Of a stretch of 64,000 bases of DNA, positions 12,862 through 59,127 are shown piece by piece (positions within the stretch are counted from its first letter, which is position 1; each line of letters begins with the position of its first letter). The position numbers were made by a program, and so were the translations under genes. Source of the DNA: an uncultured Anaeromyxobacter sp. (GTDB lineage: Bacteria; Myxococcota; Myxococcia; Myxococcales; Anaeromyxobacteraceae). The stretch is taken from positions 62,001 to 126,000 of the forward strand of contig CAIOAK010000015.1 of NCBI GenBank assembly GCA_903855945.1, given 5' to 3'. The notes below the pieces were generated by a model that did no database searches, was not told the origin of the DNA, and saw nothing but the letters and a program-made list of their open reading frames with translations.

Positions 12862-12921
12862 CCGCAGGGCTCCCAGCCAGGAGGGAGGCGGGCGGGACCC
12901 GATGGCCCCGCCCGCCCTGGT

Positions 12922-23253: not shown

Positions 23254-24072
23254 CTACCCCTCCACGAGCACCGTGCCCACGCTCCCCGGCTCCTCCACCG
23301 CGCGGCGGAGGTCGCCGGGCGCGAGGCGCCCCACGATGACCACCGACCGCGCGCCGTCCTTCAGCACCTCGAAGGACTCCTCCAGCTTCGGGATCATCCC
23401 GCCGGAGATGGCGCCGCTTTCTACACCCTGAGTGAATTCACTGTGAGTGATCCTGGGGATGCGGCTCCCGGGGTCCTTCACGTCGCGGAGCACCCCAGGG
23501 GCGGAGGTGACGAGCACGAGCGCGTCGGCCCGCAGGGCCCCGGCGAGCTGGCTGGCCACGGTGTCGCCGTTGATGTTGAGCGGCTGCCCTTCCCGGTCGC
23601 AGCCCAGGCAGGCGAGCACCGGGACGTAGCCGCGGGCCCAGAGGTCGCCGAGGAGCGGGAGGTTGAAGCCCACCACGTCCCCCACGAGGCCGAGGTCGAT
23701 GGGGTCGGGGCCGGCCCCGGTCATGACGCGCGGCGGGCGGCGGCGAGCAACGATGACGTGGCCGCTCGCCCCGTGCAGCCCCACGCCGAGGACCCCGGCG
23801 GCGAGGAGGCGCGCGCAGACGTCCACGTTCACCTTGCCGGCCACCGCGTACTTCATGACCTCCAGCGTCTCCGGATCGGTGAAGCGCTTGCCGGCCACCA
23901 TCCGGGTCTCGAGCCCCATCACCTTCTGGAGCGCGGTGGCCTGCGGGCCGCCGCCGTGGACGATGCTCACCCGGTGCCCGTCCTCGAGCAGGGCGCGGAT
24001 GTCCCGGGCCACGGCGTCCATCTCCGGGGTTCCGGCGATCTCGCCGCCGATCTTCACGACGATGGTCTTCAC
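23254..24072 (-). CDS. argB: Acetylglutamate kinase
   Basis: 272 residues. Amino acid kinase family; phosphorylates N-acetylglutamate in arginine synthesis. Motifs: VVKIGGE at the N-terminus, VHGGGPQATALQK near 38-50, the NINGDTVASQLAGAL segment and GGMIPKLEES near the C-terminus. GTG start at 24072 with AGGAG six bases away. It lies in one direction with argC, separated by a VOC protein gene. Two abutting copies of the dispersed palindrome (23422-23451) fall in the codons for ITHSEFTQG, where ACT, AGT, GAA, GGT and GTA replace the usual GC-ending codons. A LysZ-type (aminoadipate) activity is a less likely alternative. Confidence 0.92.
   Translation of the reverse strand: MKTIVVKIGGEIAGTPEMDAVARDIRALLEDGHRVSIVHGGGPQATALQKVMGLETRMVAGKRFTDPETLEVMKYAVAGKVNVDVCARLLAAGVLGVGLHGASGHVIVARRRPPRVMTGAGPDPIDLGLVGDVVGFNLPLLGDLWARGYVPVLACLGCDREGQPLNINGDTVASQLAGALRADALVLVTSAPGVLRDVKDPGSRIPRITHSEFTQGVESGAISGGMIPKLEESFEVLKDGARSVVIVGRLAPGDLRRAVEEPGSVGTVLVEG
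23422..23451. repeat. Two abutting palindrome copies in argB
   Basis: TACAC-CCTGA-GTGAA (23422-23436) is joined without a gap to TTCAC-TGTGA-GTGAT (23437-23451), each with one mismatch. The junction reads AGTGAATTCACT. Confidence 0.8.
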
Positions 24073-32882: not shown

Positions 32883-33611
32883 CTACCTCCGTCGCGGCGA
32901 TGCGAGGAGCAGGTGGACGTTCTCCCGCTCCCAGGCCTGGGAGCGGGCGTGGTCGGGGAAGGTGCGCTCCTGGCGCCGGAACTCGCGCCCGTGGATGGTC
33001 CGGCGCCCTCCCCGCTCCGCCGGCGGAACCACCTGGTGGAGCATCTCGTGGAAGACCACCGACGCGACGTAGAACTCCGGGACCTCCTCGCGGTCGAGCG
33101 CCGGGTGGATGCGGATGGCGCGGGCCGCGTGCAGGTAGACCCCGGTGCGGATGGACCTGCGCCCCGGCAGCGCGCCGCTGCGCCCCCAGCCGATGCGCAC
33201 CTCGACCGTCCCCTCGAAGTGCTCCGCGTTGAGCCGGTCGAGGATCGCCTGGAGGTCGTGGACCCGCCCGCGCGCCTGCATGCGGCCGGTGCGCGGCGGG
33301 GCGATGCGGTCCCGGTGATCGCGGACCCAGGCGTCGATGGTGCGGGACGCGGTGCGGCGCCCGTCGCCACGCCCCGGCCGGACGAATCCCGCCAGCGCCT
33401 CCACCACCTCGGGCGGGCAGCCGAGGAAGAGGTGGTGGACGCGGAACTGGATGCGCCCCCGCTCCCGTCGGAAGGAGACCATGGTGTGGCGGTTGTCGTG
33501 CACCACGAGCCGCACCGGCTCCCCGAGCCGGGCGGCCACCGCGTCGGCGAGCCGCTCGGCCTCCGCCACGCGGTCGGGCCGGGGGGCCTCGCGGGCGTCG
33601 AAGGCACTCAC
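32883..33611 (-). CDS. SprT-like zinc metallopeptidase domain protein
   Basis: 242 residues, GTG at 33611 overlapping the RqcH/NFACT stop (GTGA). The C-terminal half resembles SprT/WssA-type zincins: LQAILDRLNAEHFEGTVEVRIGWGR, then the active site VVFHEMLHQ near 190 and a basic region. A following HGREFRRQERTFPDHARSQAWERENV segment may hold a further ligand. SprT-like proteins in eukaryotes cleave DNA-protein crosslinks; bacterial roles are unclear. Its coupling with a ribosome rescue gene is suggestive but no more than that. Confidence 0.8.
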   Translation of the reverse strand: MSAFDAREAPRPDRVAEAERLADAVAARLGEPVRLVVHDNRHTMVSFRRERGRIQFRVHHLFLGCPPEVVEALAGFVRPGRGDGRRTASRTIDAWVRDHRDRIAPPRTGRMQARGRVHDLQAILDRLNAEHFEGTVEVRIGWGRSGALPGRRSIRTGVYLHAARAIRIHPALDREEVPEFYVASVVFHEMLHQVVPPAERGGRRTIHGREFRRQERTFPDHARSQAWERENVHLLLASPRRR

Positions 33612-35077
33612 GTCCCTCCCCCCTCCTCCTCCTGGAGGAGCCGCTCCACCCGGGACGGCTCGACCCGCAGCGCCATCCCCTTCTCCTGGCTGTAGGTCAC
33701 CGCCCCCGGGGCCGTACCCTTCACCTTCCGTACATGGCGGGCCCGGGTGTAGACCACCTCCGGCGCCGCCTCGCCCCGGGCGTCGCTGAAGTGGGCGGCG
33801 AGGTGGGCCGCGTCGAGCAGGCTCTCCGTGTCGGGGGCCCCTCCCTTCGGAAGGCGCAGGACCACGTGGGCTCCGGTGCGCCCCCGGGCGTGGAGCCACA
33901 GGTCGTTGCCCTTCGCGACCCGGACGGTGAGCTGGTCGTTCTCGGCGGCACCGCGCCCCACCAGGATGGGCAGCCCCGCGAGCGAGCGGAAGGACCGATA
34001 GGGCAGCGCCGGCTCCCGGTCGCGCCGACCCTTCCTCCCGGGCACCGGCTGCGGCCGGGGCCCGCCGCCCAGCCGTCGCGCCTCCCGCTCGAGCCTCGCC
34101 AGCGCCGCGAGCGGGGCGTCGTCCAGCTCGGCGCGGAGCGCCTCCAGGGCCGTGAGAAGAGCCCGGACCTCGACCGTGCGGGCCTCGACCCGGGCCGCGC
34201 TCTCGGCGATGCGCCGGTAGCGCCGGTAGAAGCGCTCCATGTTGGCGCGGGGGGTGAGCGCCGGGTCGATCGCGATCGCCACCGGGCGAGGGCCGTCCTC
34301 GGTCCACTCGGTGACCGTCACCTCCCGCGCGCCCCGCGGGACCTCGTGCAGCACCGGCTTCAGGAGGTCTGCCGCGCGCCGGTCGGCCTCGGCCGCGGGG
34401 ACCCGCGCCGCCTCGTCGGCGAGCCTCGTGAGCGCGCGCCGCGACCGGGCGACCGCCGCCCGGAGCGGCTCCCGCAGGCGCCGTCGCGCCGCCGCGAGCG
34501 CTCGCTCCTCCTCCAGCGTCCGGTAGGCCGCCTCCACCGTCGCCGAGATCGGGAAGGCGGTGCCCGTGGCAGGCGGGAAGCGCGCCGGGCCGCCCTCCCC
34601 CTCCCGCGACTCGGGGGGGACCCAGGGCTGGCCGGGCCGGAGATCGCGCTGGGGCGACAGGTTCCTGCCGGTGAGCGCCCGGATCCGCCCCGCATCGTCG
34701 ACGAGCAGTAGATTTCCCTCCCGGCCGGCCATCTCGACCACCAGGGAGATGGGGCCCGCGGCCCGATCGAAGCGGAGCATCACCACCCGGTCGCCGGTCG
34801 TCACCTCGAGGGCGGTGAGCCGCGCGCCCAGGAGCTCGCGCCTCCACGGCGCCTGGAACGGGAGCGGGTCGGCGAGCGGAGCGGGTCGGCGGGTGGCGAC
34901 GTGGATGCGGGCGAGGTCGGGCTCGCCGGAGAGGAGCAGCGTGATCTCGCCGCCCGGCCCGCGCAGGTCCAGGGTCAGGACGCGCTCGGCGTGACCCCGC
35001 ACCCCATCGACCCGCGAACCTGCGAGCGGCGCGAGTTCCGCAACGAGCTGCCGGATCTCGCTTTCCCGCAGGGACAT
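33608..35077 (-). CDS. rqcH: NFACT family protein, RqcH-like
   Basis: 489 residues. NFACT-N (fibronectin-binding-protein-A-like) domain over about the first 170 residues, helical/coiled middle, then the NFACT-R (DUF814) domain: NDLWLHARGRTGAHVVLRLPKG near 410. Bacterial RqcH binds obstructed 50S subunits and adds alanine tails for degradation. The protein is shorter than the 560-570 residues of Bacillus RqcH. ATG at 35077; 80 bases upstream on the same strand is the stop of the 25-aa basic peptide gene, with a strong hairpin between them. Confidence 0.85.
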   Translation of the reverse strand: MSLRESEIRQLVAELAPLAGSRVDGVRGHAERVLTLDLRGPGGEITLLLSGEPDLARIHVATRRPAPLADPLPFQAPWRRELLGARLTALEVTTGDRVVMLRFDRAAGPISLVVEMAGREGNLLLVDDAGRIRALTGRNLSPQRDLRPGQPWVPPESREGEGGPARFPPATGTAFPISATVEAAYRTLEEERALAAARRRLREPLRAAVARSRRALTRLADEAARVPAAEADRRAADLLKPVLHEVPRGAREVTVTEWTEDGPRPVAIAIDPALTPRANMERFYRRYRRIAESAARVEARTVEVRALLTALEALRAELDDAPLAALARLEREARRLGGGPRPQPVPGRKGRRDREPALPYRSFRSLAGLPILVGRGAAENDQLTVRVAKGNDLWLHARGRTGAHVVLRLPKGGAPDTESLLDAAHLAAHFSDARGEAAPEVVYTRARHVRKVKGTAPGAVTYSQEKGMALRVEPSRVERLLQEEEGGGT

Positions 35078-35092
35078 GGACCCCCGAAACGG

Positions 35093-35118
35093 CTGCGGCC
35101 GCCCGGAGGCGGCCGCAG
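35093..35118 (-). terminator. Perfect 11-bp stem-loop between the basic peptide gene and rqcH
   Basis: Arms CTGCGGCCGCC and GGCGGCCGCAG with a CGGA loop. It follows the peptide gene stop by about 40 bases and precedes the rqcH start. There is no T-run on either side, so it would be a U-less terminator, an RNA-stabilising end or a partial attenuator that sets lower rqcH expression. Confidence 0.6.
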
Positions 35119-35156: not shown

Positions 35157-35234
35157 CTACTTCTTCTTTGCGGCAGCCTTCTTGGCGGGCTTCTTTGCGG
35201 CGGCCTTCTTGGCGGGCTTCTTCTTCGCAGCCAT
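35157..35234 (-). CDS. 25-residue Lys/Ala/Pro-rich basic peptide (histone H1-tail-like)
   Basis: The minus strand encodes MAAKKKPAKKAAAKKPAKKA and then AAKKK before a TAG: only Met, Ala, Lys and Pro, with a repeated KKPAKKAAA unit. A near-perfect ribosome site (GGGAGGTAA, five bases before the ATG at 35234) and a strong stem-loop downstream argue for real, strong translation. Composition matches the C-terminal tails of H1-like and AlgP-type nucleoid proteins, so nucleic-acid binding is a reasonable inference. A free 25-mer of this kind is unusual. It lies about 205-220 bases from an exact copy of the dispersed palindrome, with a weaker copy beside that one. Confidence 0.8.
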   Translation of the reverse strand: MAAKKKPAKKAAAKKPAKKAAAKKK

Positions 35235-35514
35235 GTGTTACCTCCCTGACGATTGGTCAACCACCTACCACGCACGACGAAGACGAGAGGGAGATTAGCG
35301 AACGCGGATCGACGTTGCAAGGTGACGGCCACGCTTTTTTCGCGTCGCCGCCGCTCCCCTCTCCCTCCGTGTACCCGTCTGGATCGTGCCGCCCGCCGGG
35401 TTTCGGAGCCTTCCGGCTCTCCCGCGTCGCCCTCCGTTGTCTACCGTGAGTGAGTATTCACTTTCAGTGAACTATCGGAAACCCGCCACAGCAGCCCGAT
35501 TCCCGTCTTTTCGA
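35235..35514. other. 280-base intergenic region with an exact palindrome copy and a putative promoter
   Basis: Largest non-coding stretch in the window. It separates the 3' end of the phosphomannomutase gene from the basic peptide gene. It contains a TTGACC hexamer 21 bases before the peptide ribosome site (read on the minus strand), an AT-richer GCTAATCTCC segment, a T6 run (35335-35340), and an exact TTCAC-N5-GTGAA (35457-35471) beside a degenerate copy (35440-35454). No ORF of note. Confidence 0.7.
35440..35471. repeat. Exact palindrome with degenerate neighbour, intergenic
   Basis: Exact TTCAC-TTTCA-GTGAA at 35457-35471; two bases to its left a weak copy TCTAC-CGTGA-GTGAG (35440-35454). 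Confidence 0.75.
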
Positions 35515-36885
35515 TCAGGCGACCAGGCCGCGCTTCAGCTCGTCCACCTTGTCGGTGACGAGCGCCTGGATCTCGGCGAGTCGCTCGGGGGTCCGGGCCT
35601 CGAAGCGGAGGACGAGGAGCGGCTGGGTGTTGGAGGCTCGCACGAGCCCCCAGCCGTCCGGGAAGATCACCCGGACGCCATCCACCGTCACCGCCTCGTA
35701 CCGGGACGCGAACCACTCCTGGGCCCGGCGCACCAGCTCGAACTTCATCTCCTCCGGGCAGTCGTAGCGGATCTCGGGCGTGGAGAAGGTCCTCGGCACG
35801 TCGGAGAGGAGCGTGGACAGCGGCCGGTCGGTGCGGGACACGATCTCGAGGAGCCGCCCGGACGAGTAGATGCCGTCGTCGAACCCGAACCACCGGTGGG
35901 CGAAGAAGATGTGGCCGCTCATCTCGCCGGCCAGCAGCGCCCCCTCCTCCTTCATCTTGGCCTTGATGAGGCTGTGGCCGGCCTTCCACATGATCCCGCG
36001 ACCGCCCCGGGCCGCGATGTCGTCGTAGAGCGTCTTCGAGCACTTCACCTCGCCCACGATGGCCGCCCCGGGGTTCTCGGCGAGCAGCGCCCGGGAGAAG
36101 AGGATCATGAGCTGGTCCCCCCAGAGCACGTTCCCCTTCTCGTCCACCGCCCCCACCCGGTCGGCGTCGCCGTCGTAGGCCACGCCCAGGTCGGCACCGG
36201 TCTCGCGCACCTTCGCCTTCAGCTGCTCGAGGTTGTGCTCCACGGTGGGGTCGGGGTGGTGGTTCGGGAAGCGCCCGTCCATCTCCAGGAAGAGCGGGAC
36301 CACCTCGACGCCCAGCGCCTCGAAGATGGGCACCGCCACCACGCCGCCGGTCCCGTTGCCGGCGTCCACCACCACCTTGAGCCGCCGCGCGCCGAGCTTC
36401 AGATTTCCCCGGACGTAGGCCTGGTAGGGCGTGACGATGTCGTGGGTGTCCACCGTGCCCGCCCCGGTGGCGAAGCGCCCCTCGACGATGCGCCGGTGGA
36501 GCGCCTGGATCCCCTCCCCGTGGAGCGTGCTCTTGCCGACGCCCACCTTGAGGCCGTTGTACTCGGGCGGGTTGTGGGAGCCGGTGATCATCACCAGGCC
36601 GTCCACCGGCAGGGTGGCCGCGGCGAAGTAGGTGAGCGGCGTCGGGACCACCCCCAGGTCGGTGACGTCCACCCCCGTCGAGGTGAGCCCGGCGATCATC
36701 GCCTTCGCGAAGCGCGGGCCGCTCTCCCGGCAGTCGCGTCCCACCACCACGCGCCGCCCGCCCTTCTCGCGCACCTCGGTGCCCAGCGCGCAGCCCACCA
36801 GGCGCACCGCCTCCTCGGTGAGGTCCTGGTCCACCAGCCCGCGGATGTCGTACTCGCGGAAGATCTGCCTCGAGATGCTCGCCAT
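35515..36885 (-). CDS. Phosphomannomutase/phosphoglucomutase
   Basis: 456 residues, AlgC/ManB-type alpha-D-phosphohexomutase. It interconverts hexose 6- and 1-phosphates for GDP-mannose or UDP-glucose supply. Motifs: REYDIRGLV at the start, the phosphoserine loop MITGSHNPPEYNG near 100 (Ser in GSHNP), metal-binding DGDADR near 240, GEMSGH near 325 and the phosphate-binding RASNTQP near 420. ATG at 36885 with GGAGGAG. It follows manC on the same strand 30 bases away, so the pair probably makes GDP-mannose. Confidence 0.94.
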   Translation of the reverse strand: MASISRQIFREYDIRGLVDQDLTEEAVRLVGCALGTEVREKGGRRVVVGRDCRESGPRFAKAMIAGLTSTGVDVTDLGVVPTPLTYFAAATLPVDGLVMITGSHNPPEYNGLKVGVGKSTLHGEGIQALHRRIVEGRFATGAGTVDTHDIVTPYQAYVRGNLKLGARRLKVVVDAGNGTGGVVAVPIFEALGVEVVPLFLEMDGRFPNHHPDPTVEHNLEQLKAKVRETGADLGVAYDGDADRVGAVDEKGNVLWGDQLMILFSRALLAENPGAAIVGEVKCSKTLYDDIAARGGRGIMWKAGHSLIKAKMKEEGALLAGEMSGHIFFAHRWFGFDDGIYSSGRLLEIVSRTDRPLSTLLSDVPRTFSTPEIRYDCPEEMKFELVRRAQEWFASRYEAVTVDGVRVIFPDGWGLVRASNTQPLLVLRFEARTPERLAEIQALVTDKVDELKRGLVA

Positions 36886-56973: not shown

Positions 56974-59127
56974 TCACACGCGCCAGTGGACGCGCTCGAA
57001 GTCGGCCCCGGGCACCGAGAGGGGCAGGTAGCCGGACCCGGGAATGCGCTCCATCCCGTCCCCGCCGGAGAGCGCCTCCACCGACATCACGAGCTCGTCG
57101 CCGGGGCGGATCCCCAGCGGCTCGATGGGGAGCTCCAGCTCCACGATCTTCCCCTGCACCCCCCGCCCGACCTCCCCGCCCTCCCGCCGGCCGGGCCGGG
57201 AGACGCCGTCGGGTACCAGGTCGAAGTCGATGCGCACGGGTCCGAGCGGTCCGAGCAGGGTGACGCGCAGCCGGTCGGCGCGGGGGCCCTCGGGGTCCGG
57301 GTCGAGCCGCAGGTAGAGGCGGGTCTCGTCGAATCCCCAGTGGAGCGCCTGGAAGGTGGGTGCGCCGCCGAACATGGCGCCCCGCCCCCGCCCCGGTCGA
57401 TGGAGACCGGCGCCCTGCCACTCGAAGAAGTCGGGCTCGCGCCCGTCGATCACCGGGCGGATGAGCGCGGTGGGCTCGCGGAGCGCCTTGGCCTCCAGCG
57501 CGCCGCGCCCGGTGGGCTTGATGGGCTGCAGCGCCTCCGGCGGAGGGGCCAGGTCGAGCAGTTCGCAGGCCCGGAGCACATGGCCGCGGAAGAGGGCGTC
57601 GAACTCGGCCGCGTTCTCGGTGGAGAAGTCCTCCCCGTACCACCAGTACCAGTCGGAACCCTCGGCCGCGCGCAGGTGGGTGAGCGCCCGCTCCACCCGC
57701 TCCGGCGGGGCGCCGGCCGCTCGCGCCGCCTCGACCGCGGCCCGTGCCGTCCCGAGCGCCGTCCAGGCCAGCCGGTCCTCCCGGTGGCCGATCCAGATCC
57801 GGTAGGAGGCCTCGATCCAGGACCCGGAGTGGATGGCGGCGATCCGCGGCTCGGCGGCACCCGCCACCGCCTCGGACATCGTCACCGTCTCGATGCGGGA
57901 GTCGCTCTCGAGCGCCCGGTGGAGCGCTTCGAGGAAGTCGTGGCCGGAGTTCACGTAGCGTTCCCAGGGGTTCTCCCCGTCCAGGAAGACGCCCACCGTG
58001 GCCGGACCCTTTCCGCCCTCGCCCCGCCAGGCCTCCCCGGCGGACGCCACGCGCTCCACCAGGTCCGCGGCCGCGGCCGCGGCGGGCAGGCGCGCGTAGG
58101 TGAAGCCCACCAGGTCGGAGATGGGGCGGTCGCGGAAGAGCATCGCGATCTCCCGGTCGCCCGCGGCGACGCGCCAGGGGCGGTAGAGCGACAGCGCCCT
58201 GGGGCTGCCGGGGGCGAGCGAGCGGAGCAGCACCCCCTCGTCGGATGCGGCCCAGGCGACGCCCTCGGCGGCGAGCACCTCGAGCGCCTCGGGCGACACC
58301 GACCCCTCGGCGGGCCACATCCCCGCGGCGGCTCGGCCGAAGCGGCGACGGTGGAGGGCGAGGGCATCGGCCACCTGCCGGTGCGCGTCGCCGGGCCAGG
58401 CGAAGCGCGGCGGCAGCGCCACGCCGGGGAGCGCCCGGGCGGCGGCGTCGCTGTCGCAGACGAGCGGGAGGATGGGGTGGTAGTGCGGGGTGGTGGAGAG
58501 CTCCACCTGCCCCCGGTCGGCGAGGGCCTGCCACCGCGGCAGGACCCCGGCCATCACCCGGTGCTGCGCGCCGAGCAGGTAGGCCACGTCGTCGGCCCCG
58601 AAGTCGCGTCCGCGCGAGACGAGCGTTCGCAGCTCCGGGTCGTCGGCCAGCGCTCCGAACCCCATCCAGGCGAGGTTGAAGAGCACCTGCAGGTCGCGCA
58701 ATTCACTGACAGTGAATGTCGGCGCCACCTCGTCCAGGTCCACCCGGGCCAGATCGCGCCCCCGCTTCTCGAGCAGCTCCAGGTAGCGGGGGACCGGGCG
58801 CACCGAGCGGTCCCAGTCGATCATGAAGAAGGAGTGGAGCAGCCGCTTGCGCTCCCTCGGGGTGAGATCGGCCGGGTCGCGCGCCGAGATCTCGAGGAGC
58901 GTGTCGGCCGCCTCGCCGGCGACGTAGTCCTCGAGCTGGTCGAGCAGCACCGGGGTGAAGTTCACCGTGACCCGGACCGTGGGGTGGCGCTCCAGGATCC
59001 AGGCCATGTCGGCGTAGGCCCGGGTGGCATGGAGCCGGACCCAGGGCAGCACGTAGGCGCCCGTGGCCGGCTCCCGGTAGAGCGGCTGGTGCATGTGCCA
59101 CAGGATGGCGAGGCGGACCGGCTTCAT
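56974..59127 (-). CDS. Glycoside hydrolase family 57 protein
   Basis: 717 residues. GH57 glucanase/glucanotransferase-type: ILWHMHQPLY at residues 8-17, TPHYHPILPLV near 210, the nucleophile region MWPAEGSVSPE near 270 and FLDGENPWERY near 385. The C-terminal 170 residues (FFEWQGAGLHRP onwards) form a beta-rich domain like those appended to cytoplasmic GH57 amylases. No signal peptide, so intracellular glycogen or maltodextrin is the likely substrate. ATG at 59127 overlaps the upstream stop. An exact palindrome copy is in the FTVSEL codons (58702-58716), including TTG, ACA and AGT. Confidence 0.9.
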   Translation of the reverse strand: MKPVRLAILWHMHQPLYREPATGAYVLPWVRLHATRAYADMAWILERHPTVRVTVNFTPVLLDQLEDYVAGEAADTLLEISARDPADLTPRERKRLLHSFFMIDWDRSVRPVPRYLELLEKRGRDLARVDLDEVAPTFTVSELRDLQVLFNLAWMGFGALADDPELRTLVSRGRDFGADDVAYLLGAQHRVMAGVLPRWQALADRGQVELSTTPHYHPILPLVCDSDAAARALPGVALPPRFAWPGDAHRQVADALALHRRRFGRAAAGMWPAEGSVSPEALEVLAAEGVAWAASDEGVLLRSLAPGSPRALSLYRPWRVAAGDREIAMLFRDRPISDLVGFTYARLPAAAAAADLVERVASAGEAWRGEGGKGPATVGVFLDGENPWERYVNSGHDFLEALHRALESDSRIETVTMSEAVAGAAEPRIAAIHSGSWIEASYRIWIGHREDRLAWTALGTARAAVEAARAAGAPPERVERALTHLRAAEGSDWYWWYGEDFSTENAAEFDALFRGHVLRACELLDLAPPPEALQPIKPTGRGALEAKALREPTALIRPVIDGREPDFFEWQGAGLHRPGRGRGAMFGGAPTFQALHWGFDETRLYLRLDPDPEGPRADRLRVTLLGPLGPVRIDFDLVPDGVSRPGRREGGEVGRGVQGKIVELELPIEPLGIRPGDELVMSVEALSGGDGMERIPGSGYLPLSVPGADFERVHWRV
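58702..58716. repeat. Dispersed palindrome copy, exact (in GH57 gene)
   Basis: TTCAC-TGACA-GTGAA, exact, flanked by A and T: a 17-base palindrome apart from the centre. Confidence 0.8.

Follow-up and report, generated by a model that had tools for sequence, protein, structure and literature searches.

The locus considered here raises the question of what an exact palindrome does upstream of a gene for a histone-tail-like peptide, and whether it is a site of a nucleoid-type protein, an operator of that gene, or both. It lies in a 64,000-nucleotide stretch of contig CAIOAK010000015.1 from an uncultured Anaeromyxobacter sp., hereafter the window. The palindrome TTCACT-TTC-AGTGAA (TTCACTTTCAGTGAA, 35457-35471, no strand assigned) is a putative binding site with a profile score of 29.2, located between two minus-strand genes, 43 bp from the end of the phosphomannomutase/phosphoglucomutase gene (35515-36885, stop at 35515) and 223 bp upstream of the ATG of the peptide gene. 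A degenerate second copy, TCTACCGTGAGTGAG (CTCACTCACGGTAGA on the minus strand; 35440-35454, likewise without strand), lies 2 bp away, 17 bp start-to-start; it differs from the motif at 4 of the 12 fixed positions and, with a profile score of 10.6, is a weak site by itself. Both elements had been described in the initial annotation and were recovered from the sequence, with the nuance that the window holds a second exact TTCACTN3AGTGAA copy besides the intergenic one, at 58702, within a gene. A sigma70-type promoter is predicted on the minus strand at 35292-35320, comprising TTGCAA (35315-35320), a 17-bp spacer and TAATCT (35292-35297). A simple automatic consensus scan did not call it, and sequence comparison indicates that its layout, TTGACN - 17/18 - TAAYCT, recurs in orthologous loci. 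The predicted promoter is located ~137 bp from the palindrome on the gene side, thus any effect of the palindrome would act from upstream.

The peptide gene occupies 35157-35234 of the minus strand (ATG at 35234), with the Shine-Dalgarno sequence GGGAGGT (35240-35246, minus strand) directly before the ATG and conserved in orthologous loci. Its 25-aa lysine-rich product, MAAKKKPAKKAAAKKPAKKAAAKKK, consists of Met, Ala, Lys and Pro alone, as the annotation had stated, and searches of Pfam and NCBIfam gave nothing for it. The gene precedes an NFACT/RqcH-family gene (33608-35077, minus strand; PF05833 145.6 bits, PF05670 49 bits), which was its constant neighbour in an order-wide search. In the same-family genomes and in genomes of families f2, f3, f4, f7 and f8, the NFACT/RqcH gene is preceded by a lysine-rich ORF that starts with ATG, encodes 21-85 aa and carries a strong Shine-Dalgarno sequence; with a composition filter, no such ORF was found in f6 and part of f3. 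Judged by this conservation across families, the peptide gene is real and keeps its place upstream of NFACT/RqcH in most of the order. Other lysine/alanine-rich coding stretches with DNA-level likeness to the peptide gene occur in the genome (L004:4720-5030, L005:4410-4560). At three f7 loci (L191, L195, L199), the peptide gene has a divergent neighbour similar to the window gene 32883-33611, which by eye we take to be SprT-like (metalloprotease-like).

Since the genome is estimated to hold ~700 sites, one site near one gene says little, and the argument for a link rests on the relatives. A profile derived from this genome was used to find the highest-scoring site within 500-600 bp upstream of the peptide ATG. 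This site scores at least 11.4 and lies at -160 to -250 from the peptide start in 17 of 21 same-family genomes, several of these scores being modest (11-14) and the genomes not being independent of each other. Lower values were obtained for G011 (9.9), G007 (7.5) and two genomes of genus g3 (3.8, no site). For comparison, scores this high were reached by 0.8-1.4% of random 300-bp windows and 1-6% of windows upstream of genes in two other genera, and cdbA promoters of related genomes, used as a control, carry such a site in 1 of ~25 cases. In the f7 genomes G045, G047 and G057, where the exact palindrome is rare (3-4 per genome), one exact copy precedes the peptide gene by 134-157 bp; in G049, a copy with one mismatch takes its place, and the four sites together fall at 134-160 bp. 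The weak tandem partner is also present at orthologous places, 17 bp away in the same-genus G001 and 20-21 bp away in G022 and at the f7 upstream sites. In G030 (f8), TTCACAGCCTGTGAA lies at -277 from the peptide start and is 1 of 3 such looser palindromes in its genome. The peptide gene lacks such an upstream site in g3, in those f2, f3 and f4 genomes that were sampled, and in five genomes of f7 (G029, G035, G039, G051, G055); where the site is present, it recurs at a similar distance upstream of the orthologs, as would be expected of an operator. In other genera, another gene replaces the phosphoglucomutase/phosphomannomutase gene as the upstream neighbour while the site stays, which indicates that the site follows the peptide gene. 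On these comparisons, we regard the palindrome-peptide pairing as genuine and of long standing in the lineage, and the proposal to look for it in other Myxococcota thus gave a positive answer in 17 of 21 same-family genomes and in four genomes of a second family.

The palindrome is also abundant far from the peptide gene. Allowing up to 2 mismatches, TTCACTN3AGTGAA has 13 matches in the window compared with 0.32 in shuffles, and in the whole genome (4.07 Mb, 213 contigs) the exact pattern occurs 64 times and its reversed control not once. With this count, the genome is the outlier among 195 genomes of the phylum, the runner-up having 12. Three other genomes of the genus have 0, 0 and 3 exact copies. 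The exact copies in G003 sit within unrelated genes. The looser TTCACN5GTGAA occurs 158 times here, 39, 15 and 72 times in same-genus genomes and 0-7 times in other genomes of the family. A profile scan of 750 kb, for the most part sampled in the surroundings of exact sites, gave 18.3 sites per 100 kb compared with 0.9 in a Markov control, which scaled to 4.07 Mb extrapolates to ~700 sites per genome. Other genomes of the genus have 10-23 profile sites per 100 kb where ~1 would be expected, in samples that include loci orthologous to the window and are thus not fully independent, and two other genera have 4.5 and 2.5. The counts of the looser pattern and of profile sites in congeners point to a motif of the genus as a whole that is most sharply defined in the present genome. 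Across relatives, ATCACN5GTGA is enriched over its reversed control, an excess that codon bias may affect and to which we gave no weight. The looser TTCACN5GTGAA is separately enriched in G024 (f2; 145 copies) and in the f7 genomes G045 (45), G051 (52) and G059 (26), with 0-1 in the control, and several congeners of these f7 genomes have almost none. In G057, an exact palindrome lies between a gene for an HTH regulator, presumably WYL-type by eye, and a cas3-like gene (L201:2460). Our literature search found no report of this motif or peptide, and the available part of a spaced-motif survey including A. dehalogenans (PMC5217627) shows no such motif.

The placement of the copies and the way they arose bear on their nature. 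Of the 144 profile sites in the 750-kb sample, 122 (~85%) lie wholly inside genes, 16 are clearly intergenic and 6 are at gene edges, the coding fraction being 0.92 according to a simple gene finder written for this analysis. The flanks of the copies are unrelated, with none in common. Seven sites could be aligned with congeners. Four of them are found throughout the genus, and at the other three, substitutions that spell the motif created or strongly sharpened the site here; the alignment at one of the seven, 12919, has length differences. At 23422-23451, two copies directly adjoin with a 15-bp step, and at least one of them was gained in this species. The position mostly in genes, the unrelated flanks and the gains by substitution are what selection for a binding site would produce, and fit neither a mobile repeat nor a promoter regulon. 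An insertion or repeat element was rejected as the source of the copies on the grounds of the flanks and the aligned gains (with the length differences at 12919). We likewise consider it highly unlikely that the palindromes are remnants of a repeat element or hairpin terminators instead of protein sites. Several exact copies in f4 (Myxococcaceae-type) do lie in longer intergenic, terminator-like inverted repeats, but the copies here are mostly in genes, three of the seven aligned sites arose or were sharpened by substitution, and the focal site has neither a longer stem nor a T run. An Rfam search gave no match. In the f4 genus g26, exact TTCACTN3AGTGAA is found upstream of dnaA in five genomes (L205, L206, L231, L232, L248), several of the copies forming part of a longer inverted repeat; the L205 and L248 loci stop at the contig end, and dnaA is inferred there from the common upstream gene. 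The f4 palindromes were set aside as a common regulon (dnaA, kinases), being largely intergenic and several of them inside longer inverted repeats. In the present genome, many copies are dispersed irrespective of genes, in the manner of matS, SBS and NBS sites, and these gene-blind palindromes have the look of sequence-specific sites of the nucleoid type and not of a promoter regulon. This distribution lends support to the earlier suggestion that the palindrome is a nucleoid-protein site.

We hypothesize that a dimeric protein, shared by at least some members of the order, binds the palindrome sequence-specifically. The older and conserved function of the site would be to serve as an operator upstream of the lysine-rich peptide gene preceding NFACT/RqcH, and in this genus, most strongly in this species, the site would have spread by point substitution to ~700 places, mostly in genes, which fits a nucleoid-organising role better than ordinary promoter control. 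We lean towards this combination of a conserved peptide operator and a spread within the genus as the explanation of the site, with somewhat better than even confidence. It assumes, from sequence similarity, that the conserved operator and the genome-wide sites are read by a single protein, which would then probably occupy many places on the chromosome and control the peptide as well. The reading in the initial annotation gains partial support: the motif with its enrichment, the conserved peptide gene, the conserved pairing and position, and the nucleoid-type distribution are observations, while the binding and the regulation with its sign are, like the protein itself, the promoter and the function of the peptide, what we infer from these patterns. 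Two unrelated proteins could also be involved, an ordinary regulator with a site at the peptide gene and a second protein reading the genus-wide palindromes, the sequences being merely alike here. The looser, RTCACN5GTGAA-like upstream site in the family outside the genus speaks for such a coincidence, as does the finding that half of the few strong sites in G006 and G013 are intergenic (10/19) compared with 22/144 here. We nevertheless find it rather doubtful, as the f7 upstream site has the exact TTCACTN3AGTGAA form and weak genome-wide enrichment is seen outside the genus too.

The peptide itself most likely binds nucleic acid non-specifically. A 42-aa relative gave sub-threshold H1-like matches, the one to Pfam HC2 (PF07382) reaching 16.1 bits against the curated cut-off of 40 and thus falling short of membership of this histone H1-like family; the 25-aa peptide had no match to it. 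Small basic peptides also bind ribosomes, and the constant neighbour of the peptide gene encodes the ribosome quality-control factor NFACT/RqcH. The peptide could therefore be a ribosome-associated and not a nucleoid factor, with the site taking part in translation-related control of both genes, a tentative reading that we would not favour. An 11-bp GC-rich, terminator- or attenuator-like hairpin (35093-35118, minus strand) separates the peptide and NFACT genes and is present in the same-family loci compared; it is strong, and the two genes may thus not form one transcript. This alternative concerns the function of the peptide and is compatible with the dimeric-protein explanation of the site. 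Going further, it is conceivable, though we hold it to be on the unlikely side, that a new sequence-specific nucleoid protein of this lineage reads ~700 palindromes per genome, the majority in genes, whose number and sharpness change fast among related genomes, and also controls the conserved histone-tail-like peptide. Such a two-part chromatin system would combine a sequence-specific with a non-specific component and would offer a natural case of recent genome-wide site expansion, from 0 to 64 exact copies among genomes of one genus, so that the rise of a chromosome-organising site could be traced by comparing living species. It would also tie this site to a conserved, hardly noticed lysine-rich peptide beside NFACT/RqcH.

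A search for the binding protein among the RHH genes of this genome gave none with a convincing palindrome nearby, and no autoregulated HTH gene beside intergenic palindromes was evident. An obvious candidate would be CdbA, the essential c-di-GMP-responsive nucleoid-associated protein of Myxococcus, whose ortholog is present here (E 3.1e-27 to PDB 6sbw) and in 37 of 41 relatives, including 31 of 31 near-complete ones. Its DNA-contacting strand, KRKQSLYF, does not change between M. xanthus and this genome, and relatives with the identical strand lack genome-wide palindromes, so the strand stays constant despite greatly varying palindrome abundance. The cdbA promoter of this genome carries no palindrome. 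As the strand is unchanged and the published site differs, CdbA is a poor candidate, and we judge it very unlikely that the palindrome is its site.

Among known systems, the ribbon-helix-helix protein CdbA of M. xanthus belongs to the same order and has hundreds of dispersed sites, many in genes (569 ChIP peaks; PMC7156744). The two differ in their sites: that published for CdbA is a direct repeat, rich in GC and with 4 bp between its halves (PMC7156744), and the one found here is the AT-containing inverted repeat TTCACT-N3-AGTGAA. With the CdbA strand conserved, a different protein is probably at work here. MatP/matS, SlmA/SBS and Noc/NBS use short palindromic sites dispersed over the chromosome. 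The present palindromes share this layout and differ in sequence. Lambda CI operators (TATCACCGCCGGTGATA) and similar phage-repressor-type sites have the TCAC-N5-GTGA half-site layout with weaker tandem partners, which the palindrome and its degenerate neighbour recall as a resemblance only. The peptide has Ala/Lys/Pro-rich composition in common with the repeats of Hc1/Hc2 and the Burkholderiales H1-like family, but is far shorter than these proteins.
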